This document shows positions 36,157-48,704 of a DNA stretch of 64,000 nucleotides, piece after piece (position 1 is the first letter of the stretch; each line of letters begins with the position of its first letter). This DNA is from Olivibacter jilunii (lineage in GTDB: Bacteria > Bacteroidota > Bacteroidia > Sphingobacteriales > Sphingobacteriaceae). A program made the position numbers and the translations under genes. A model generated the notes under the pieces. The model searched no databases. It was given only the letters and a program-made list of their open reading frames with translations, and was not told where the DNA came from. Location of the stretch: positions 248,001 to 312,000 of the forward strand of contig NZ_LR027852.1 in the NCBI RefSeq assembly GCF_900607235.1, in the 5' to 3' direction.

Positions 36157-36187
36157 TTTGTGATGTAAATATAATGCGTTATTTTTG
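36157..36187 (+). promoter_or_regulatory. Promoter at the left end of the metal-uptake locus
   Basis: TTTG at 36157-36160, a 19-base spacer and TATTTTTG at 36180-36187. An ATAA-N4-TTAT inverted repeat (36171-36182) overlaps the -7 element and could be an operator. Transcription would start near 36194. Confidence 0.65.
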
Positions 36188-36190
36188 TAC

Positions 36191-36256
36191 TGCCTTGCTT
36201 AAGGCATGTTTTTCATAGGTAGATGTAGGGTCGGATACTTGTATCCGGCCCTTTTT
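36191..36256 (+). ncRNA. Candidate attenuator leader or short RNA ending in an intrinsic terminator
   Basis: Two hairpins follow the promoter. TGCCTT-GCTT-AAGGCA lies at 36191-36206. GGGTCGGATA and TATCCGGCCC (36228-36251; 10 bp with one G-U pair and a 4-base loop) are followed by TTTTT, a typical terminator. No coding sequence lies between promoter and terminator, and the small His/CxxC gene starts 35 bases later. The transcript would be about 60 bases long unless read through. Confidence 0.45.
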
Positions 36257-36290
36257 AAGACTTACACGGATTTTTACCTTTCATTCCGAT

Positions 36291-36641
36291 ATGTTTAATC
36301 GAAAAGGAATTCTGCTTTCAGTCATTGCAAAGTTCATGCTTTTGTACTTTGTACTAGCTGTTGTTCCTTTAGATTTCTATCATCACCACGACTTATCGCT
36401 GTCGCCAAAGCCAAAAAGCGCAACTTTTAGGATTAACCATCATACGGAGCACACGGCGAGTCTTTCTTCTTATTGTTTGATATGTAACTTACATATCAAT
36501 CAAAAGTACGATGTGCCTATATTTAGTTTTAGATTCATACTCTTTGCTAAGTCGACTTATCAGTCATTCGGTCTTATACATTTTTCTCATCAACAGTCCA
36601 TTCAGGACATTACCTCAAGAGGGCCTCCTTTGCTTACTTAA
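36291..36641 (+). CDS. Small His-rich CxxC protein (GPP C-terminus) preceding a TonB receptor
   Basis: A 116-residue protein with one N-terminal membrane helix or signal sequence (about residues 8-28, LLSVIAKFMLLYFVLAVVP). Next come DFYHHHD and a second His cluster, INHHTEH. A CLIC (CxxC) pair followed by His sits in SYCLICNLHINQKY, and the end is SRGPPLLT. A protein with the same plan starts the opposite arm of this locus (42981-43319). The plan (helix, His patch, CxxC, GPP end) recalls DUF2946 proteins that accompany metal receptors in Proteobacteria. I infer transition-metal binding or sensing. It precedes the TonB-dependent receptor by 51 bases in the same direction. Confidence 0.7.
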   Translation: MFNRKGILLSVIAKFMLLYFVLAVVPLDFYHHHDLSLSPKPKSATFRINHHTEHTASLSSYCLICNLHINQKYDVPIFSFRFILFAKSTYQSFGLIHFSHQQSIQDITSRGPPLLT

Positions 36642-36692
36642 CAGGTGCAATATAAAAGAGTACTTTCTCTATAGGTTAATTTTTTCATTATC

Positions 36693-39026
36693 ATGACTAT
36701 TGTCATGCATTCCATTTTTATGTATAAGTTCATCACCATGCTGTTTGCATGTTTAATGCTCAGCAGTTATAAAAGTTATTCGACGGAAACAATAGCCGTT
36801 GGTGGAAAAGTAATAGATGCGACAAGCAAACAGCCTTTGTCGGGTGCGACTATTACGATTCCCGATTTACGAATTTCTGTGCTCACTGATCAATCCGGTA
36901 TGTTCAGTTTACGAAATGTTCCGGCGAGGGGTAGTTTTTTAATAGAGCTTAGATTTATTGGCTATGAGACGCTTACGCGTGTTATTGACCTTTCTAAAGA
37001 AAACGATTGGCAATTTGAGTTAAAGCCAACACTTATAGAAACGCAGGAGGTGGTTGTTACCGGTACCCTTTCTTCCGGTAGCAATAAAAGAAATAGTACA
37101 ACAGTGAACATCCTCAATAAAGATAAGTTGCTGCTTCCATCGAGCAACATTATCGATGCAATTGCCAAAAGTCCGGGTGTATCGCAGGTAAGCACCGGCC
37201 CCTCGATTTCAAAACCCGTCATAAGGGGTTTAAGTTATAATCGCGTAGTGACCATTGACAACGGTATCAAACAGGAAGGACAGCAATGGGGCGATGAACA
37301 CGGAATCGAGATTGACCAATTCAAAGCAAATCGGGTGGAAGTATTAAAAGGGGCAGCCTCTTTGATTTACGGTTCAGATGCCTTAGGAGGTGTTATTAAT
37401 CTTTTGGAGCCCATTCCTGTTCCTGAAGGAGAAATAAGTGGAGAATTTCTAACAAACTACTCCACAAACAATGGTCTTGTCGGATCATCAGTTATGTTGA
37501 CGGGTAATCAGAACGGTTTCGTTTGGAGAGGTAGAGGCACTTATAAAAATGCTTATTCATTTAAAACACCTGTGGGCTATTTTCCCAATTCCGGTTTTAA
37601 TGAGACAGATTTCAGTGGTATGCTGGGCCTGAATAAGTCGTGGGGATATACCCACCTCAACTTTTCGAGTTTCCGGAATAATATAGGTTTTTATGAGCCT
37701 GCGTTCGATTCAGAAGGCAATTATGTGGACGAAGAAGGAAACCGCTTCTTTCATGACGACTTTAAGAGCAGGACTTTACAGTATCCTAAACAAGATATTC
37801 GCCATTACAAAATATCATTGAATAATAACTTACTCATCGGAACAGGTAACTTAAAACTGAATCTGGGTTTTCAACGAAACCAACGACGGGAGTTAGAGGA
37901 CGGGCCCGACCCTTCCCTTTATTTTAATTTGGACACCTATACCGGTGATGCGCGCTATTATATTGGGCAGAAAAATGGTTGGGAACCGGTTTTTGGCTTC
38001 AGTACGGAAATTGGACATAGCGAAAACCGAGGGGAGGAATTTTTAATCCCTGCTTATGACACGTATGGCGTAGGAACCTTTGCCTATATTAAAAAGAACT
38101 GGGAAAATAGTACTTTTAATGTAGGCGTTCGTTACGATTTCCGTAAAAATATAGGAAAGCCGTTAGAGCAAAATGGAGAATCGCTGTTTCAACGTTTCAG
38201 TAATCAATTTTCTAATGTGAGCGGAGCCATCGGCTTTACGCATCAATTTACAGAGAGACTCAATTTCAAAGCCAATGCGGGTTCTGCTTTTAGAGCGCCT
38301 AATCCAGCCGAATTGGGATCAAATGGCGAACATGAGGGCACTTTCCGTTACGAAATTGGAAATCCGGATTTGCAACCAGAGAGGAGCTACCAGGTAGACG
38401 CAGAATTATCTTACGACGGGGATTTTGTGAATGCCAGCGCCACGCTATACAATAATTATATACACGACTTTATTTATGCTGCCCACCATGGCGAATTCAT
38501 TGATAATTTGCCTGTTTATCAATATGGACAGGTCAATGCTAATTTGTATGGAGCGGAAGCAAGTCTGATCTTGCATCCCGTTCATTTCATCCATTTTGAG
38601 AATACTTTTGGCTATACACATGCGCAGAATACAAGCATGAACAGGCCCTTGCCATTTATTCCCGCTGGAGTATTGCGAAATGAGTTACGATATGAACCGG
38701 AGATTAAGCATTTGCAGGAACCTTTTCTTTCGGTTGGCATGGCTAACTATTTTGCACAGAATCGCGTAGATGAAGAGTTTGAGACACCTACAGCAGGTTA
38801 TACCTTGGTAAATGCAAGTGTAGGAGCCACCTTTTTTGCCGGAAAGCAGCCAATCAAATTTTATGTATCGGCTAATAATTTGCTGAATAAGAAGTATTAT
38901 GATGCTTTAAGCAGGTATAAACCAGGGCGATTAGATCAAAGTGATTTGAACTTAGGTGTTTATAATCCGGGCAGAAATATTACATTTGGCGTGTATCTGC
39001 CCTTTGTGCTTAAACATAGTAATTAA
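36693..39026 (+). CDS. TonB-dependent outer-membrane receptor, metal type (left arm)
   Basis: A 777-residue receptor. A signal peptide is followed by a CarboxypepD_reg-like domain (about residues 34-115, VGGKVIDATSKQPLSGATITI). The plug (about 120-240) has KSPGVSQVSTGPSISKPVIRGL, EGQQWGDEHGIEIDQF and VEVLKGAASLIYGSDALGGVIN. The 22-strand barrel region ends in NNLLNKKYYDALSRYKPGR and FGVYLPFVLKHSN. The plug pattern and the neighbouring His-rich proteins fit the ZnuD-like group of zinc receptors, but copper or another metal is possible. Later in-frame starts at 36705 and 36720 (MYKFITMLF) are equally good. A 14-bp inverted repeat right after the stop separates it from the convergent lipoprotein gene. 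Confidence 0.85.
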   Translation: MTIVMHSIFMYKFITMLFACLMLSSYKSYSTETIAVGGKVIDATSKQPLSGATITIPDLRISVLTDQSGMFSLRNVPARGSFLIELRFIGYETLTRVIDLSKENDWQFELKPTLIETQEVVVTGTLSSGSNKRNSTTVNILNKDKLLLPSSNIIDAIAKSPGVSQVSTGPSISKPVIRGLSYNRVVTIDNGIKQEGQQWGDEHGIEIDQFKANRVEVLKGAASLIYGSDALGGVINLLEPIPVPEGEISGEFLTNYSTNNGLVGSSVMLTGNQNGFVWRGRGTYKNAYSFKTPVGYFPNSGFNETDFSGMLGLNKSWGYTHLNFSSFRNNIGFYEPAFDSEGNYVDEEGNRFFHDDFKSRTLQYPKQDIRHYKISLNNNLLIGTGNLKLNLGFQRNQRRELEDGPDPSLYFNLDTYTGDARYYIGQKNGWEPVFGFSTEIGHSENRGEEFLIPAYDTYGVGTFAYIKKNWENSTFNVGVRYDFRKNIGKPLEQNGESLFQRFSNQFSNVSGAIGFTHQFTERLNFKANAGSAFRAPNPAELGSNGEHEGTFRYEIGNPDLQPERSYQVDAELSYDGDFVNASATLYNNYIHDFIYAAHHGEFIDNLPVYQYGQVNANLYGAEASLILHPVHFIHFENTFGYTHAQNTSMNRPLPFIPAGVLRNELRYEPEIKHLQEPFLSVGMANYFAQNRVDEEFETPTAGYTLVNASVGATFFAGKQPIKFYVSANNLLNKKYYDALSRYKPGRLDQSDLNLGVYNPGRNITFGVYLPFVLKHSN

Positions 39027-39045
39027 CGATCAAATGGATAGATGG

Positions 39046-39084
39046 ATAGAAGGAGCTCGAGAGCTTTATACGAGCTCCTTCTAT
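39046..39084. terminator. Bidirectional hairpin between convergent halves of the locus
   Basis: ATAGAAGGAGCTCG (39046-39059) and CGAGCTCCTTCTAT (39071-39084) are a perfect 14-bp inverted repeat with an 11-base loop. It lies between the stops of the left receptor and the first lipoprotein. No long T-run follows. Confidence 0.75.
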
Positions 39085-39093
39085 GAAAATCAA

Positions 39094-39789
39094 TTAATGA
39101 TCGTGCCCCACAGCATGAAGCTCAAAGGTCAATTTTAACACATCCTCTCCGGCAAATCTGCTAGCATAATCGTCATGATTCCAGTCAATGCGTTCAATCT
39201 TTCCTTTAGTTGTATTGTCTGAGAGTTTTCGCAGTACATAAGATACATCGGTATCTGCGCCTTCATTCGCTTCGCCCAAAGTAAAATAGGCAAGAATACC
39301 GGTTGTTTCGTATTTACCGTTTACTTTGGTGCCGTCACCGTACGTTTGTTCCCTTGGTTGAAAAAGTGCCCCATTTTCGGCCTCACCCGTTTCCGGATTT
39401 AAGGTGAAATTACCACCGACTATAAAAGCTTTGTAAAAGTCGGCTACTGTTTTGCTTGTAAGAAATTCCTCCTGTACTTCCTTGCCTTCGCGATTATAGG
39501 CATAAAGTTGCAAACGATAGACTTTGTGGGGGTCTAAATGAATATGGCCACTTTTGGCAACACCAAACTGATCAAACTCGATGGCAACACTATCTTTTTC
39601 CCCGGTGATTTCTGCGAGATCATGAAAGTGATCACCATGAGCATGTCCACTAACTTCAATGAAATCCAGACGAGCGGATACAATCGCGTTGGGATCTTCC
39701 GGAATCACGGGGTCATCATCTTTACTACAGGCATTGAAAATAAGTGCAAAGGCGACAAGCAAATACGATAAGTTTCTTAATTTGTTCAT
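39094..39789 (-). CDS. His-rich lipoprotein, likely metal-binding (paralogue 1)
   Basis: A 231-residue lipoprotein: the signal ends in the lipobox-like FNAC, followed by SKDDDP. His clusters are striking: SGHAHGDHFHDLAE early in the mature part, SGHIHLDPHKVYRLQLYAYN in the middle, and FELHAVGHDH at the C-terminus. The paralogue at 39904-40485 has the same three clusters at the same places. I read it as a surface or periplasmic metal-binding component that serves the TonB receptors. No enzyme motif is visible. It faces the left receptor gene tail-to-tail. On its own strand it follows the second lipoprotein, with a hairpin between them. Confidence 0.75.
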   Translation of the reverse strand: MNKLRNLSYLLVAFALIFNACSKDDDPVIPEDPNAIVSARLDFIEVSGHAHGDHFHDLAEITGEKDSVAIEFDQFGVAKSGHIHLDPHKVYRLQLYAYNREGKEVQEEFLTSKTVADFYKAFIVGGNFTLNPETGEAENGALFQPREQTYGDGTKVNGKYETTGILAYFTLGEANEGADTDVSYVLRKLSDNTTKGKIERIDWNHDDYASRFAGEDVLKLTFELHAVGHDH

Positions 39790-39843
39790 AAATTGTTTTT
39801 TTATTTAAAAATATTAGTAAAAAAGAAATATAGAGTGCATAAA

Positions 39844-39869
39844 ATAGCCCTCCCTTTAAAAAGGGCTAT
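39844..39869 (-). terminator. Terminator between the two lipoprotein genes
   Basis: ATAGCCCT (39844-39851) and AGGGCTAT (39862-39869) form an 8-bp stem. On the minus strand the stem is followed by TTTAT, so it would end the transcript of the right arm after the second lipoprotein gene. Confidence 0.6.
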
Positions 39870-39903
39870 CTTGTTTTCAATCTTTTTAGTTCAACCGGTT
39901 TAT

Positions 39904-40485
39904 TTACTCATGGTCGTGTCCTTCATCTACCGGATGCAATTCAAAGCTTTTATTGAAATCGTCCGATCCGCCCGCTTCACGATAGTTGGGACTGTTCCAG
40001 CTTTGTGCGGCAGGCTGCGACTTGTCCAAGCCATGTCGCAACACAAGTTGCAAATCAAAGCCCTCTGATGCCTTGTTAACCGTGAAAACACCTTTAAATC
40101 CTACTCGGTTATCAGTGTAGGTATAGTCGAGCACGTCAGCGGGTGCTCCGAGGAAAAACCACTGATGTTCATTTTCGCCGAATTCGGCCGTTGTATTTTG
40201 CCCATTTTTGAACATGGCAATATCCAATTGGTATTGCTCGCCGGCATGTAGATGCACATGTGACGGGTAAGGCCGGTCGCTACCTCTTATAAAACGTACC
40301 TGCAGGGTGTCGCCTTCGGCATGGAATTCATCATCATGATAATGGCCCTCGGTAAATGTTAAGATCGTGCCATCATATTCTTCCTGGTCTATTTCCGGAA
40401 CAGGATCGTCTTTCGAACAGGAACTGAAAGAAACCGCTGCTAAACTTACAGCAGCAATCATAAAATAGTTACGTAAAATGTACAT
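39904..40485 (-). CDS. His-rich lipoprotein, likely metal-binding (paralogue 2)
   Basis: A 193-residue lipoprotein with lipobox FSSC followed by SKDDPVPE. The three His clusters of its paralogue are conserved: EGHYHDDEFHAEGD, SHVHLHAGEQYQLDIAMFKN and FELHPVDEGHDHE. Identity outside these is low, so the duplication is old or the His positions are under strong selection. It follows the right-arm TonB receptor by only 25 bases on the same strand, and its leader contains three TTTTTAA heptamers. That places it in the operon of the receptor, consistent with a shared substrate. Metal (Zn or Cu) binding is inferred from His content only. Confidence 0.75.
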   Translation of the reverse strand: MYILRNYFMIAAVSLAAVSFSSCSKDDPVPEIDQEEYDGTILTFTEGHYHDDEFHAEGDTLQVRFIRGSDRPYPSHVHLHAGEQYQLDIAMFKNGQNTTAEFGENEHQWFFLGAPADVLDYTYTDNRVGFKGVFTVNKASEGFDLQLVLRHGLDKSQPAAQSWNSPNYREAGGSDDFNKSFELHPVDEGHDHE

Positions 40486-40496
40486 GTTTGTAGAGA

Positions 40497-40517
40497 TTAA
40501 AAATTAAAAATTAAAAA
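40497..40517 (-). repeat. TTTTTAA heptamers before lipoprotein 2
   Basis: Three identical 7-mers, TTTTTAA on the minus strand, overlap the stop codon of the right-arm receptor and lie just upstream of the lipoprotein gene start (40485). Confidence 0.8.
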
Positions 40518-42829
40518 ATGTAGTTTAGCTTCAAGGTGACATTCCGTCCCATATCATGTGCGTAGTACCGAAATCGGTTCATGTATTCTTTGTATTCCTT
40601 ATTGAGCAAATTGTTTATACCTAGTTGAAAATTCAAATCCTGTTGGTTGAAGCGAAAGCCAAGGCCTCCCATTACATTCAATAAACCATAAGCAGGAGGT
40701 GGCGGTGCAAAATCAGTATTTGGTTCGTACCGACTTTGCCGAGTCACAAATTGATGTTGCACTTGTATAAATGTATTATTGAGATGTCGCTTTTGGCGGG
40801 ATTTCGTCCATCGCAGGGCATTTTCTACTCGGTCAGAAGGTATCCAGGGTAAATAGTTCTTCCGACGAGTGTCTTTTGCTCTGACAAGCGAGCCCTTGAT
40901 TGTATAGCGGAAGTTTTCGGTCAACTGATAGCTGCCAGTTAAATCAAGCCCCCAAAAGAGGGCATTCGTTTGTTTGTAGTGAAAAACAGGGAAAGCCCCT
41001 CTTAAGCTCTCCCAAAATTCGCCGGTAGACTGTAAGTAGATGTAATTTTTTATATAATGGGCATAAGCGTCTAATTCAAGATCAAAGTCTGGTAATTGAA
41101 ATTTTACGGCATTCATCCATTTTAAACCCTGTTCACTCTTGAATTGATCGTTGCCAATTTCAACCGCTGCAGTTCCATGATGTAATCCATAGCTAAACAG
41201 TTCACTTACCGATGGTGGCCGCCAGGCTAGGCCGATATTGGATTGTACATCTAAGCTCTTATGAACATGCCAGGTAGCTCCCAGTGAGCCTGAAAAATTA
41301 TGGAAGGTTCGCGTACCGGCGTAGTAGATTGAGTCTAGACGATAACCCGCCGCATCGAAATATTTGTAATCATAGCGTATGCCCGCTTCTATTTCGTACG
41401 TTGGCTTTACCCACCTTTCTATTATAAATAGCCCTGCATTATAACTATCATAATTCGGAATCAAGGGGGTAGCGAAAGTGCCCGGGATGTTGTTATTTAC
41501 TTGCATCGCCAGATTAACACCGATAATACTTCGTAAGCCGTTTTCTTTTAGGTGGTCGTAGGTGATATCCAAATTCTGAGAAGTAAGTTCCAGATCGAGC
41601 GACGGAATGCCCGTGCGTCCGCCTCGCCGAATGTCGTACTCTTTACGCAAGTTCCTTTGCAATCCATATTGGATGTCCATTTGGGCACCGTTTGTGAAAT
41701 CCCGGTGGGCTTTTAGCTTCAGTAGGTCGTGCTTAATCTCTTGCCGCGGAGCCTCTATGGTGTGCGAGAAAGGATAGGTAATGAACGGTTTGCCATTTTC
41801 AATACGCGATTGCAGATCTTCCACGCTTCCTATATGTGAACCGTTGAAAATACCTAATTCTGTCTCGAAATGACTATAATAAGCCTCGAACTGTGTCGAA
41901 CTTGTCTTATATCCTAGAGACGCTGAATAGTTAATTTCTTTAACACCGGTATTATTAAGATAATAATCAGCCGATTTGATGTCACCAAGTCTCTTAAAAC
42001 TACCCTGTGCGCGCCAGCTAAAGCCCGGTATTTTTTTTAGACCACCATTTAACATAGCCGATGTGATGCCACCGCGACCGTTACTTTGTCCTACCACATC
42101 AATTTCTCCATGAATTTCCGGGTTTATCGGTAAGGTCGGAGGCTCAACAATGATAACGCCTCCAATAGCCTCTGCACCATAACGAACTGATTCGGCTCCC
42201 TTGATAACGCGGATATTCTTGGCAACGAAAGGATCTATTTCGGGTGCATGCTCATTTCCCCATTGCTGTCCCTCTTGCCTGATGCCGTTATTAAGCATCA
42301 GGATGCGGTTGCTGTGCATCCCATGGATAACGGGTTTCGCTATCGTAGCTCCGGTTTGCAACATAGTCACACCTGGGATCTCCTTGAGCACTTCCGCAAG
42401 CACACCGCCTTTGCTTTCCCTTAACTGCTGCTGAGTAAGCGAATTTACGACGGATGTAGTTTTCAGATTGTTTTGGTGCCCAACAACCTCGACGTCGTGG
42501 AGTACTATGTCACCATGCTTTAAGGCGATATGAAGGGTTTCATTCTTTGTTATGTTCAGCGTCCTACTTGTCTTTTCAAAGCCTAAGCTTTCGAAGCTAA
42601 GTGTATAGGTGCCTTCACAAAGCGAAGAAAGCCTATAAAAGCCATGGCCATCGGTCTTTACAGTTCTATTGGCCGGCATGATGCGAATCGTAGCGCCAGC
42701 AAGTGGTAATTGTGTGTCCGAATCGATGAGACGTCCGTTAATCATAAAATTGCAATCATTGTTTTGCGCGTAGCCTATATGACTACATAAAAGCAAAAGC
42801 AACCAGGTAAACTGCTTTTTAATAAACAT
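40511..42829 (-). CDS. TonB-dependent outer-membrane receptor, metal type (right arm)
   Basis: A 772-residue receptor with a signal peptide (residues 1-21), a CarboxypepD_reg-like domain (about 27-105, MINGRLIDSDTQLPLAGATIRI) and a plug with KEIPGVTMLQTGATIAKPVIHGM, EGQQWGNEHAPEIDPF and VRYGAEAIGGVIIVEPP. The barrel ends in NNLLNKEYKEYMNRFRYYAHDMGRNV and LNYIF. The plug motif EGQQWG-x-EH-x-x-EID is shared with the left-arm receptor, so the two are paralogues; their barrels differ. Together with the small His/CxxC gene upstream and the lipoprotein downstream it forms the right half of a mirror-image locus. A metal chelate or free metal ion is the likely substrate. Confidence 0.85.
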   Translation of the reverse strand: MFIKKQFTWLLLLLCSHIGYAQNNDCNFMINGRLIDSDTQLPLAGATIRIMPANRTVKTDGHGFYRLSSLCEGTYTLSFESLGFEKTSRTLNITKNETLHIALKHGDIVLHDVEVVGHQNNLKTTSVVNSLTQQQLRESKGGVLAEVLKEIPGVTMLQTGATIAKPVIHGMHSNRILMLNNGIRQEGQQWGNEHAPEIDPFVAKNIRVIKGAESVRYGAEAIGGVIIVEPPTLPINPEIHGEIDVVGQSNGRGGITSAMLNGGLKKIPGFSWRAQGSFKRLGDIKSADYYLNNTGVKEINYSASLGYKTSSTQFEAYYSHFETELGIFNGSHIGSVEDLQSRIENGKPFITYPFSHTIEAPRQEIKHDLLKLKAHRDFTNGAQMDIQYGLQRNLRKEYDIRRGGRTGIPSLDLELTSQNLDITYDHLKENGLRSIIGVNLAMQVNNNIPGTFATPLIPNYDSYNAGLFIIERWVKPTYEIEAGIRYDYKYFDAAGYRLDSIYYAGTRTFHNFSGSLGATWHVHKSLDVQSNIGLAWRPPSVSELFSYGLHHGTAAVEIGNDQFKSEQGLKWMNAVKFQLPDFDLELDAYAHYIKNYIYLQSTGEFWESLRGAFPVFHYKQTNALFWGLDLTGSYQLTENFRYTIKGSLVRAKDTRRKNYLPWIPSDRVENALRWTKSRQKRHLNNTFIQVQHQFVTRQSRYEPNTDFAPPPPAYGLLNVMGGLGFRFNQQDLNFQLGINNLLNKEYKEYMNRFRYYAHDMGRNVTLKLNYIF

Positions 42830-42980
42830 GAATATGAAAGGTTTTAGCTTGTTTTGATGTGATCAAAAGCAAGAGACAAAGAATTGCTCCAATACATTTA
42901 GCTTATACAAACACATTTGCTTCTTTTTACAGGAAAAATCAGCATTATAATGGCTTTGCTTTTGCTAAGAGAAGAGCTGA

Positions 42981-43319
42981 TTAGGCCAATGGTGGCCCTT
43001 TATTGAAATAGCTGGATAGGGGAATCTCAAATGGTATAGCTAGATCCAAACGTTGAATCAGTATAGGTTTGCTCCTATATACTTCACTTAACGTGAAAAG
43101 CTGACCTGGCAACTGTTGGCCTTGTTTGACATGTAGGTAATCACATATCTTACAATTGATTTCCTTTTTAACTTGAAAGGAGGTATGGCTTGTTTGCTTT
43201 GTATTGTCATTATGATGGTAAGCATGTATTAATTGCACGCCTTGTATGTAACCTATTGTTACAAGCAAGCAAAGCGCAATTAGCCTATAGATGCTTTTTA
43301 ATGACAATCCTTCTACCAT
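42981..43319 (-). CDS. Small His-rich CxxC protein (GPP C-terminus), right arm
   Basis: A 112-residue protein with the same plan as the one at 36291: an N-terminal membrane helix (about residues 10-27, YRLIALCLLVTIGYIQG), HAYHHND, a CKIC pair followed by His in NCKICDYLHVKQ, and the end FNKGPPLA. Sequence identity is otherwise low. It precedes the right-arm receptor by 150 bases. The promoter TTG-N20-TACTTTTG ends at 43326, only 7 bases before the ATG, so the message is predicted to be leaderless or nearly so; a downstream TTG (43307) is the alternative start. Metal binding or sensing is inferred. Confidence 0.7.
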   Translation of the reverse strand: MVEGLSLKSIYRLIALCLLVTIGYIQGVQLIHAYHHNDNTKQTSHTSFQVKKEINCKICDYLHVKQGQQLPGQLFTLSEVYRSKPILIQRLDLAIPFEIPLSSYFNKGPPLA

Positions 43320-43325
43320 TTACTG

Positions 43326-43356
43326 CAAAAGTAGCATAAATGCAGCTATATTGCAA
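43326..43356 (-). promoter_or_regulatory. Promoter of the right arm of the metal-uptake locus
   Basis: On the minus strand TTG (43356-43354), a 20-base spacer and TACTTTTG (43333-43326). An imperfect palindrome with TGCAA and TTGCA ends spans the promoter (43324-43355) and could bind a repressor. Confidence 0.7.
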
Positions 43357-46310: not shown

Positions 46311-48704
46311 ATGGAAACGGGATCAACCTGCCTCAAAAATCTACAAAAATTTTGTGCCGCTCTATTTTTACCGTTAACGGCAGCCGTTTTATTTTTAAGT
46401 CCTTTTGGTGTAATACCCGCCCTGGGGCAGACATCCGATAACGACTATCCGTCGAAGCAGCCGATGGGCACCATAAAAGGGACCGTTGTAACCAGAGACG
46501 GACTGCCCGCAATAGCGGTAACCATCAGTGTTAGTGGTGGACACAGCACCAGATCGGATCGTGACGGGAATTTTACCATGGAAGGGGTGAAGGCGGGAAG
46601 ACAAACGGTTATTGCCACTTTTGTGGGCCTTCGACCGAAGCAGCAGGAAGTTCTGGTTCCGATCGACGGCACCGTGGAGCTGCAGATAATTTTATCGGAG
46701 GACGCGCAGACCTTGCAGGAAGTTATCGTTACCGGCGCGGGCGAAGAAAAAATATTGGACAAAAGTACCGATTACGTGGCGCGGATGCCACTAAGCAACC
46801 TGGAAAACCCACAGGTGTACAGCGTGGTATCAAAAGAACTGATGAAAGAACAGGTTGCGGTGGATATCGGAGAGGTTGTGCGCAATGCGCCGGGCAGCGT
46901 GCCGCAGGTGTATGCTTCGGGCGGCTTCGGCATGATGATCCGTGGTTTCAGTACCGGAGTGAATGCCCGAAACGGCATGGAGACCGTGAGTGGGCGTTCG
47001 TCGCTCGATATCGCTAATATAGAGCGTATAGAGGTATTGAAGGGACCCTCGGGAACGTTGTTCGGTTCGGCTGTCTCGTCTTTCGGTGGTGTGGTGAACC
47101 TGGTCACCAAAAAACCTTTTGAAACAGCCCATACGGAGGTTTCCTATACAGGGGGCAGTTACAATCTGAACCGCCTGACAGTGGATCTGAACCGGCCATT
47201 GACGGAAGATAAAACTGCTTTATTCCGTTTGAATGCGGCCGTTAACAGACAGAAAAGCTTCCTGAATTATGGGTTTAACAATACATTTCTGATCGCGCCA
47301 AGCTTATCATTCCGGGTGAATGAACGCCTGACTTTTCTGCTGGACGCAGAATACTTTCATACCAACAATACACGGATGGTATACAATCGTTTTGATCGGG
47401 CTTCGGGTATTACAAGTGCGGAACAGATTCCATTGGCTTATAACCGTGTACTGTTTAAAGATGACGGGGATGCAAAAACGACAGTTACAAAGTTTTTCAC
47501 GGAAGCGAAATATAAAATTTCGAAAAACTGGACTTCTTCTACCCTGTTCTCATTTGTGGGTGAAGAGGTGGATCACAGTTATCAATTTTATCAGACCTGG
47601 ACAGCTCCCGACAGTGTAATACGTTCGGTGTTGGTATATGGTCCCATTTACAATAATTACTTAAATGTGCAGGAAAACGTCAATGGCCAATTTTATACAG
47701 GATTCCTAAAACATAATTTATTGATAGGCGTGAACTACCGCTATACCAAAGGTGGGTTTAATAACGCAAACACAGGTAACATAGACACAGTAGGTGTTTA
47801 CGGTCCGGTTACGGACGTAAGCAAAAGAATGGTGGATGCACGGCTTGTTGAAACCATTTTCCCGCAGGCAAGTCAACAGACCATAAGCGCTTATGCTACC
47901 GATGTAATAAATTTCACAGATCGTTTCTCGGCTATGTTAAGTTTGCGCGTGGACCGTTTCGAGCGAAAAGAGATTGCTACGACACCGGGGTATAAGCAAA
48001 CCGCGCTAGCTCCTAAATTGGGCTTGATTTATCAGGTGTGGAAAGATCGCCTTTCGGCCTTTGCGAATTACATGAGCGGTTTTCAGAATCTGGCTCCATC
48101 CAATCAACCGGACGGAACACTATTAGTTCTTGATCCCGTTAACGCCAATCAGTCGGAAGCAGGGGTGAAGCTGGAAACAGCGGCGAAAAAGGTGAGCTTA
48201 ACTTTGAGCTATTATCGTATTGTGATTGATAATGCGACGAGGATAAATACAGATGGTTTTACCGTTCAGGATGGAAAGCAGGTGAGCAAAGGGGCGGAAT
48301 TTGAGCTTCTCGCGAACCCAGTGCCCGGAATGCACCTGCTGGCGGGTTATGTATATAATGATAACCGTATTGTCCGTGCTTCCGACCCGACGATCGAAGG
48401 GAATAAAGCGATCAATGCACCGGAGAATGTGGCGAATTTATGGGTTTCGTATACCTTTCAGCACGCATTGAAAGGCCTTGGGTTGGGCTTTGGCGGTAAC
48501 TATGTGGATAAGAGCTTCGGCTTTGCCGATAATGTGTTTTCCGTACCCTCTTATACGGTATTGAATGCAACGGCCTTTTATGACCAGCCGAAATGGCGAT
48601 TGGGCTTTAAGTTGAATAACATCGGTAACGAGCGTTACTGGGATGCTTGGACAGCTCCACAGGCCCCCCGGAATTTCGCTGTAAACTTAACGCTTCGTTT
48701 CTGA
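46311..48704 (+). CDS. TonB-dependent siderophore receptor
   Basis: A 797-residue outer-membrane receptor of the FhuA/FecA-like class. A signal region (about residues 15-40) is followed by a CarboxypepD_reg domain (about 52-130, GTIKGTVVTRDGLPAIAVTIS) and a plug with DIGEVVRNAPGSVPQVYASGGFGMMIRGF, RSSLDIANIERIEVLKGPSGTLFGSAVSSFGGVVNLVTKKPF. The barrel contains LTFLLDAEYFHTNNTRMVYN and FENLA-like TonB barrel strands, ending in NAWTAPQAPRNFAVNLTLRF-like residues (aromatic last). Compared with the two metal receptors it is GC-richer and unrelated outside the common fold. Its stop codon overlaps the PepSY gene start (TGATG). With the Fur-like box upstream this is an iron-siderophore uptake pair; the siderophore is unknown. 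Confidence 0.88.
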   Translation: METGSTCLKNLQKFCAALFLPLTAAVLFLSPFGVIPALGQTSDNDYPSKQPMGTIKGTVVTRDGLPAIAVTISVSGGHSTRSDRDGNFTMEGVKAGRQTVIATFVGLRPKQQEVLVPIDGTVELQIILSEDAQTLQEVIVTGAGEEKILDKSTDYVARMPLSNLENPQVYSVVSKELMKEQVAVDIGEVVRNAPGSVPQVYASGGFGMMIRGFSTGVNARNGMETVSGRSSLDIANIERIEVLKGPSGTLFGSAVSSFGGVVNLVTKKPFETAHTEVSYTGGSYNLNRLTVDLNRPLTEDKTALFRLNAAVNRQKSFLNYGFNNTFLIAPSLSFRVNERLTFLLDAEYFHTNNTRMVYNRFDRASGITSAEQIPLAYNRVLFKDDGDAKTTVTKFFTEAKYKISKNWTSSTLFSFVGEEVDHSYQFYQTWTAPDSVIRSVLVYGPIYNNYLNVQENVNGQFYTGFLKHNLLIGVNYRYTKGGFNNANTGNIDTVGVYGPVTDVSKRMVDARLVETIFPQASQQTISAYATDVINFTDRFSAMLSLRVDRFERKEIATTPGYKQTALAPKLGLIYQVWKDRLSAFANYMSGFQNLAPSNQPDGTLLVLDPVNANQSEAGVKLETAAKKVSLTLSYYRIVIDNATRINTDGFTVQDGKQVSKGAEFELLANPVPGMHLLAGYVYNDNRIVRASDPTIEGNKAINAPENVANLWVSYTFQHALKGLGLGFGGNYVDKSFGFADNVFSVPSYTVLNATAFYDQPKWRLGFKLNNIGNERYWDAWTAPQAPRNFAVNLTLRF

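Follow-up and report, generated by a model that had tools for sequence, protein, structure and literature searches.

What is a small protein with a histidine cluster and a CxxC motif doing immediately ahead of the gene for a TonB-dependent receptor? The question is raised by a locus of Olivibacter jilunii at which the arrangement is found twice: two such proteins, small1 and small2, each precede a TonB-dependent receptor (TBDR1 and TBDR2), and two lipoproteins, lipoA and lipoB, are encoded between the receptors (Table 1). The locus lies in a 64,000-nucleotide (nt) stretch of the 6.7-Mb genome (C5:248001-312000), hereafter the window. A preliminary description of this DNA saw here a mirror-image metal-uptake locus in two convergent copies. 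The six open reading frames (ORFs) are all present in the ORF list at the places it gave, as are the sequence motifs and a perfect 14-bp hairpin; the mirror image did not survive closer inspection. One half, on the plus strand, is small1–TBDR1, without a lipoprotein; the other, on the minus strand, is small2–TBDR2–lipoB–lipoA, with both lipoproteins behind TBDR2, and the receptors fall in separate clades. Our analysis indicates that each receptor gene is probably headed by a metal-sensing regulatory upstream open reading frame (uORF) of the CruR/CutF kind. We read small1 and small2 in this way because of their conserved motifs and spacing, a link to DUF2946, published kin, C-rich RNA, and a gene for Rho. 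Start codons are uncertain throughout, counts are given without correction for phylogeny, and searches were seeded from this locus.

In both small proteins a hydrophobic segment at the N-terminus is combined with a His cluster, a CxxC and a GPP end, the shared features that had first drawn attention to them. Their pairwise similarity is marginal (E 0.004), and a profile grown from either one draws together 50 proteins from the fetched regions, with the two window proteins among them. Identity to small1 among 40 aligned members is mostly 10–28%, with two at about 50%; common to them are H31 (small1 numbering), both Cys of the CxxC, and the C-terminal PP. A true CxxC is present in 39 of the 40 (the exception is L064), and [RK]xPP follows the second Cys column at 43–48 residues in every one (mean 45.1). 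All 115 distinct members end in [RKQ]xPP within their last 25 residues (R in 95, K in 19, Q in 1), a uniformity that is partly by construction since the search model contains this end; a CxxC stands 43–48 residues before it in 103 members, and none falls in that range in the other 12. As background, 18 of 3612 other distinct ORFs of 80–220 residues carry a C-terminal [RK][GADS]PP, and 7 of these a CxxC at the right distance. The earlier hint at DUF2946 proved a good lead, borne out by relatives of the window proteins rather than by the proteins themselves: 7 of the 40 members match PF11162 at E≤1 (best 1.3e-5), and three orthologous uORFs heading TBDR2-type operons (G016, G064 and G116, among 121 genomes of the family Sphingobacteriaceae) pass the Pfam cut-off, so the link to DUF2946 is one of homology through intermediates and not of resemblance alone. 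Two uORFs, in Capnocytophaga (L194:4284-9664) and Hymenobacter (L198:4357-4737), keep the RxPP end and have Cys/His-rich stretches, DCIFHQ and HCHVDQ, in place of the CxxC.

The association with receptors is general. An A3-type receptor lies directly downstream of the small protein in 28 of 30 phylum loci (one of them the window and four more from its family), and directly upstream of the lipoprotein in 24 of 30, each set of 30 being the best-scoring part of the matches with the window locus included. Relatives of small1 occur in 50 (E≤0.01) and of lipoB in 37 (E≤0.001) of the 121 family genomes; across 345 genomes of the phylum the small protein is found in 54 and the lipoprotein in 41. Beyond the window, small protein, receptor and lipoprotein follow in this order at 26 loci, of which 20 belong to the family and six lie elsewhere (Kaistella, two Hymenobacter, Capnocytophaga, UKL13-3 and a Flavobacteriaceae metagenome-assembled genome), and at four further loci (L301–L304). 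Among the best 80 of 255 receptor relatives, a small protein lies upstream in 39 (though L191, at least, has it non-adjacent), a lipoprotein is present in 15, and 8 have both. Behind receptors of the TBDR1 clade (TB1) no cluster of co-oriented ORFs recurs in at least 3 of 30 loci; behind those of the TBDR2 clade (TB2) a lipoprotein follows in 31 of 31, in regions fetched through the lipoprotein. That count, and another adjacency count of 27/30, derive from regions that had been fetched via one or other of the two flanking families, small protein or lipoprotein, and we give them no weight as evidence. The co-occurrence that the preliminary description proposed as a check takes the form of recurring operons across Bacteroidota, and with ZnuD as the closest solved relative of the receptors its notion of a single metal-uptake unit is reasonable. 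Its remark that the set is undescribed needs qualification: a uORF with a TonB receptor is already in print, while the lipoprotein as third member is absent among the literature matches listed. A uORF-family member at L069:11022-12656 (G006) stands 525 nt ahead of a lipoA-type lipoprotein, and we recognised no receptor in the interval.

A further line of evidence is the RNA. The uORF and intergenic stretch are C-rich, with a mean C–G of +0.049 (45 loci) against -0.028 in receptor segments of the same operons (135; p 5e-20), a comparison that is compositional only and uncorrected for ancestry; Rho is encoded in the genome. Intergenic stretches range from 13 to 315 nt, with medians of 77 nt (27 TB1 loci) and 55 nt (18 TB2 loci), and measure 51 nt (small1–TBDR1) and 151 nt (small2–TBDR2) in the window.

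Gene order, conservation, motif positions, spacing, compositional bias and the two receptor clades are what the mechanism is built upon; arrest, metal dependence, the involvement of Rho, the direction of the response, the identity of the metal and the role of the lipoprotein are what we infer. The nascent small protein would carry a metal site made of the CxxC (plus His); once this site was outside the ribosome, the peptidyl-transferase centre would read the C-terminal [R/K]-[G/A/D]-P-P arrest motif. When metal is scarce the ribosome would stall, which would protect the C-rich uORF end and the intergenic RNA against Rho, or keep them out of an inhibitory fold, and the downstream ZnuD-like receptor – behind TBDR2 also the lipoprotein – would be made. 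Metal on the CxxC would release the stall and turn the operon off. The receptor would import the metal or its chelate; the lipoprotein would probably sit exposed at the surface as a partner of TBDR2. That a nascent peptide can put a TonB receptor under metal control has been shown for copper in Bordetella, and no riboswitch is described for zinc according to the same authors (PMC9426467). Widespread control of this kind before ZnuD-like receptors would extend CruR-type regulation to Bacteroidota, and perhaps to zinc.

Several observations weigh against a regulatory uORF. Neither small1 nor small2 matches DUF2946 (E≤1), small1 having no Pfam match at all, and the literature examined yielded no expression or arrest experiment on a Bacteroidota member. 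The fold of the uORF end and intergenic stretch is modest (mean z -2.13 in 27 TB1 loci and -1.03 in 18 TB2 loci; 40 shuffles each). Identity in the C-terminal part, which exceeds that of the N-terminal part in the small2 clade (76% vs 51%), is reversed in the small1 clade (42% vs 53%), and seven other TB1 uORFs hardly differ (C-terminal 45%, N-terminal 41%); the Fisher tests on these comparisons, as on tail counts, ignore shared ancestry and are descriptive only. No uORF was recognised in 10 of 30 fetched lipoprotein regions of the family, where it is either dispensable or unrecognised; among them is the Parapedobacter group (L070, L071, L072, L077/L184), in which receptor and lipoprotein are kept, xerD stands directly before the receptor, and the uORF seems to have been lost. 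The receptors, moreover, miss the cut-off of the ZnuD family (NCBIfam NF038289, 950 bits) with 145.9 bits for TBDR1 and 96.1 for TBDR2, and the metal to which CruR responds is copper, zinc having a moderate effect on mRNA only (PMC9426467).

Might the small proteins act as proteins instead? The preliminary description imagined a periplasmic metal chaperone or sensor, and a stable periplasmic or membrane-anchored protein passing metal inward from the receptor would account for the conserved N-terminal hydrophobic helix, His cluster and CxxC, and for the receptor adjoining it in 28/30 loci. A chaperone has no need, however, of what is most constant after the CxxC – the C-terminal PP and its 43–48 residue spacing – and in the AlphaFold model (predicted local distance difference test score, pLDDT, 68.7; predicted template modelling score 0.33) little beyond the N-terminal helix is confident, leaving it too poor to place a metal site; deletion of the homologous CruR, furthermore, is not complemented in trans (PMC9426467). 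We therefore regard a chaperone as unlikely: the conserved elements are those of a CruR/CutF uORF, and the idea of a sensor was right in spirit. A switch of opposite sign also deserves consideration. As with CutF, metal could promote stalling, opening an RNA stem-loop at the receptor start and turning the operon on; the mostly short intergenic stretches agree with this, as does some fold stability in TB1 loci (z below -2 in 12/27), and the window proteins pass the length, PP and gene-distance filters for CutF-like proteins (PMC9973294). Yet the gene under control encodes an import receptor, which matches CruR; C-richness marks the uORF and the intergenic stretch; and TB2 loci show little extra fold stability (3/18 below -2), all of which make such a switch improbable. 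Stalling under metal scarcity, as in CruR, is the reading we carry forward.

The uORFs fall into two classes that follow the receptor. In the family regions, those linked to TBDR1-type receptors end in R[GA]PP in 28/28 cases at a spacing of 43–44, while those linked to TBDR2-type receptors have a spacing of 46–48 in all 17 with a CxxC, and NK[GAD]PP in 12/18. Among 50 uORFs with a receptor in view, Lys forms occur in 14 of 26 lipoprotein-bearing operons against 1 of 24 without a lipoprotein. All 19 Lys forms are NKxPP with x restricted to G (14), D (3) or A (2), and 18 keep the usual distance to the CxxC; Asn directly precedes Arg in only 2 of 95 Arg forms. Lysine and the longer spacing are separable, since three NKGPP forms outside the family (L193, L212, L179) have a spacing of 43. 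CruR/CutF-like arrest uORFs as a kind are already published; the receptor-linked subclasses are new.

What to make of the lysine is less clear. In systematic mutagenesis with tests in E. coli and B. subtilis, no other residue could take the place of the Arg in ApcA, ApdA or ApdP, as had been found before for SecM (PMC12992588), and there is a structural reason for the requirement (PMC10951233). At the second motif position Gly does equally well or better in both ApdA and ApdP, with Ser, Asp and Pro partly tolerated; ApcA tolerates no change there, and of the RAPP-like motifs RGPP arrests most robustly (PMC12992588). The natural Lys forms keep the second-position rule and break the rule of Arg at the first. 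That small2 has Lys (NKGPP, spacing 47) at the Arg position counts against its being a regulatory uORF, and we class it as a variant for that reason: in NKxPP either arrest is lost or there is another arrest core. Tentatively, and short of an even chance, we suggest that NK[GAD]PP is a working arrest motif, the lysine counterpart of RAPP/RGPP in metal-sensing uORFs of Bacteroidota, with the metal site in Sphingobacteriaceae 3–4 residues further from the motif, varying with the receptor type; the ribosomes of the phylum, or the Asn before the Lys, would compensate for the missing Arg. Decay would be another account, in which the proteins before TBDR2 are remnants without arrest and only the RGPP class regulates. 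The Arg requirement in E. coli and B. subtilis (PMC12992588, PMC10951233) favours it, as does the failure to recognise a uORF in the Parapedobacter group; it sits badly with 19/19 Lys forms keeping Asn just ahead of the Lys and allowing G, D or A alone at the next position, with the CxxC at its usual distance in 18/19, and with the better-conserved C-terminal part in the small2 clade. Decay has a fair chance, though short of even odds. Counts in 834 long proteins help little: K[GAD]PP is rare (1 observed, 5.3 expected), as is the R form (0 vs 4.1 expected), and its avoidance is uninformative because the N and E forms are nearly as rare (2 vs 5.2 and 2 vs 5.0). A literature search pairing KGPP with arrest peptide or ribosome stalling gave no paper containing KGPP among the matches listed. 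A working NKxPP motif would mean that this convergent locus holds two arrest signals, each specific to its receptor, which could give two import systems different set points; the NKxPP form also offers a direct way of testing whether arrest can do without the Arg.

A central issue is the metal. TBDR1 and TBDR2 are 30% identical (E 5e-97) and share the plug motif EGQQWG-x-EH-x-x-EID that had been noted in both: in TBDR1 it begins at residue 195 (EGQQWGDEH, with His203), followed by GEHEGT at residue 545 (His547); in TBDR2 it begins at residue 186, with GLHHGT at residue 548. The closest solved structure in the PDB is ZnuD (E 1.1e-22 for TBDR1, 3.3e-14 for TBDR2), and a search of the genome for the ZnuD family at E≤1e-10 brings up TBDR1 and TBDR2 alone. 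Both receptors fall far below the family cut-off; they also miss that of the OprC copper receptor (TIGR01778, 472.45 bits) with 85.7 and 70.8. The high-affinity zinc site of ZnuD comprises D90 (as printed), H100, E340 and H499 (PMC4557270). Chain positions 114 and 513 (H100 and H499, an offset of 14 fitting both) pair with His203 and His547 of TBDR1, and these columns are His in 26/26 aligned receptors; just before H100 ZnuD has Asp, where TBDR1 has Glu, and the E340 position falls outside the alignment. Since H100 and H499 align with invariant receptor His we lean slightly to zinc, which we would put a little below evens. Copper, at somewhat lower probability, is possible given the CxxC, the precedent of CruR, and CrtA, which is also without conserved Cys or Met (PMC12914433). 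The only Cys columns of the receptor alignment at 50% or more lie before the plug.

Three other loci with a uORF-family member have a bearing on metal as hints only, or stand as observations. On contig C3 of the same genome one member (L119:7498-15308) precedes an ABC-ATPase-like ORF, a receptor and two DUF3526 permeases, gene kinds that recur in the Zur-regulated znuK/znuGHI of Caulobacter (PMC4176598), and after these a further receptor-like ORF; another (L299:5348-13245) precedes a receptor, an ExbB-like gene, a 114-residue ORF and CobN. In G015 a member with the tail RSPP (L120:7426-15230) is followed by a receptor, HmuY and CobN.

The lipoproteins are paralogues, as had been proposed (29% identity, E 7e-12). 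The model of lipoB is mostly beta (pLDDT 87). Its lipobox Cys is followed by SKDD, and [SKT]KDD follows the Cys in 24 of 32 aligned lipoproteins, presumably resembling the surface export signal of Bacteroidota. No Pfam family was found for lipoA, lipoB or four relatives, with scattered weak matches in the 32-row alignment (one member matches Lipocalin_4, and row L101, which lacks most conserved columns, is doubtful); neither they nor any of the 32 match HmuY (E≤1). A fold assignment was set aside: Foldseek against the PDB gave nothing at E≤0.001, and the best VIA-align Z scores, 7.8 (a nuclear pore protein) and 7.4 (RhoGDI), are at a level too common for a fold claim. The case for the proposed His-rich surface metal trap is weakened: His averages 10.6 in the 32 Sphingobacteriaceae rows against 3.6 in 46 outside relatives (G136 counted twice, as L123 and L301), although 24/30 loci keep the receptor in front. 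Of the 46, 29 have 2 His, 38 have 4 or fewer, and L130, L142, L149 and L194 have 10 or more; the Capnocytophaga lipoprotein ORF (L194:4284-9664) is 495 residues long. The His clusters, frequent in Sphingobacteriaceae and mostly not elsewhere, therefore have the look of something elaborated later and not of the core function. The lipoprotein is nonetheless a candidate surface partner for a metal receptor.

How did the two halves come to face each other? Among 26 receptors placed in a tree, TBDR1 belongs to a clade of 9 (support 1.0) and TBDR2 to one of 17 (0.987); both clades include members of other genera. A sister genome of the same genus (G052) has ankyrin gene–small RNA–lipoB–TBDR2–small2–xerD, without small1, TBDR1 and lipoA, and shares the ankyrin and xerD flanks with the window locus; the full arrangement is also found in G015 and G063, and lipoA groups in a tree with L069:11964-12656. 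Receptor tree and G052 layout together rule out a recent inverted duplication. Because G052 has small2–TBDR2–lipoB alone between the same neighbours, the simplest reading is that small1–TBDR1 and lipoA were probably added beside an older xerD-linked small2–TBDR2–lipoB operon.

Table 1. Features of the locus (positions in the window)
Feature	Position	Strand	Description
small-RNA-like element	36178-36262	+	~80 nt; -7-box-like TATTTTTG, hairpin, linker ATGTTTTTCATAGGTAGATGTA, terminator hairpin
small1	36291-36641	+	116 residues; predicted CruR/CutF-like leader (uORF) of TBDR1; ORF list and family alignment
small1 CxxC (CLIC)	36474-36485	+	letters checked in sequence
small1 arrest-type RGPP	36618-36629	+	3 residues before stop; spacing 44 from CxxC
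TBDR1	36693-39026	+	777 residues; TonB-dependent receptor, TB1 clade; Pfam plug and barrel
perfect 14-bp inverted repeat	39046-39084		11-nt loop; between converging genes
lipoA	39094-39789	-	231 residues; lipoprotein paralogue of lipoB
terminator-like hairpin, then T-run	39845-39868	-	between lipoB and lipoA
lipoB	39904-40485	-	193 residues; lipoprotein, predicted mostly beta
TBDR2	40511-42829	-	772 residues; TonB-dependent receptor, TB2 clade
small2	42981-43319	-	112 residues; predicted leader of TBDR2; spacing 47
small2 Lys-type NKGPP	42990-43004	-	2 residues before stop
small2 CxxC (CKIC)	43143-43154	-	letters checked in sequence
TACTTTTG	43326-43333	-	putative Bacteroidota-type -7 box just 5' of small2 start

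The smaller features call for brief comment. Given its place between converging genes, the 14-bp hairpin looks like an ordinary bidirectional terminator, and the same placement ruled it out as a functional centre; lipoA is perhaps on its own transcript, since a terminator-like hairpin precedes it. The call of TACTTTTG near small2 is based on a -7 consensus that we take to be TAnnTTTG. A third TonB-receptor-like ORF, judged by eye from its translation, lies nearby at 46311-48704 (+).

The element 5' of small1 is read as a separate small RNA gene, because 113/121 family genomes have it, many of them more than once, while the exact 17-base core turns up in 7/273 loci, all of them this locus in three genomes; the same counts ruled out a conserved leader serving as attenuator of small1. 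Its linker is invariant in 25 copies, double-sided changes are kept at 3 of 22 predicted pairs, and its fold z is -3.76. No Rfam match overlaps it at E≤5, and the 17-letter core was not found in the literature searched; when a model of the element was run with strict filters on 198 phylum genomes, 8 gave matches, and 6 of these belong to the family.

It remains to compare the locus with known systems. To our knowledge ZnuD has no uORF or lipoprotein partner, and the receptors here differ from it in score (145.9 and 96.1 bits vs 950). The likeness to ZnuD of Neisseria (PDB 4RDR) lies in two of its listed high-affinity zinc ligands, H100 and H499, which align with His of TBDR1 (PMC4557270). BtuB–BtuG of Bacteroides offers a parallel, by description only, for a lipoprotein working with a TonB receptor (PMC10404256). 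CutF-like proteins, known from Rhodobacter capsulatus, were chosen by length, signal peptide and terminal PP, and 40% of those listed come from Bacteroidota after normalising; the window proteins share with them a length below 150 residues, PP in the last 15 residues and a co-oriented gene within 1000 nt (PMC9973294). CutF, however, raises production of a multicopper oxidase via a stem-loop (PMC9973294), whereas the targets here are import receptors. With the RAPP/RGPP arrest peptides (PMC12992588, PMC10951233) small1 and the other TB1-linked uORFs share the R[GA]PP end (28/28 in the fetched regions), while NK[GAD]PP lies outside the motifs counted and runs against an irreplaceable Arg (PMC12992588). 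RAPP/RGPP uORFs of TonB-related genes were reported across Gram-negatives, copper-related ones not being found in Bacteroidota in that survey (PMC12992588).

The closest parallel is CruR (bp2923, DUF2946) of Bordetella pertussis, which lies upstream of crtA/bfrG and resembles the small proteins in its CxxC and in an RxPP about 45 residues later near the stop (PMC9426467, PMC12914433). Its CxxC and RAPP, 45 residues apart, are conserved to one or two residues in more than 2000 proteins; mutation of the RAPP abolishes downstream expression, and mutation of the CxxC strongly impairs the copper response (PMC9426467). Like the uORFs described here CruR is the first gene of an operon with a TonB receptor next and a C-rich uORF end (PMC9426467), a richness that parallels the CruR rut site. 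CruR is described as poorly structured (PMC9426467), with which the low-confidence small-protein model beyond the helix agrees. The differences are these: a PepSY_TM gene follows the Bordetella receptor, where here there is a lipoprotein (TB2) or no conserved co-oriented gene (TB1); the TB2 class has a spacing of 46–48, with NKxPP in 14/26 lipoprotein-linked uORFs; and the Arg-type RxPP of CruR is present in small1 (RGPP, 44) and replaced in small2 (NKGPP, 47).

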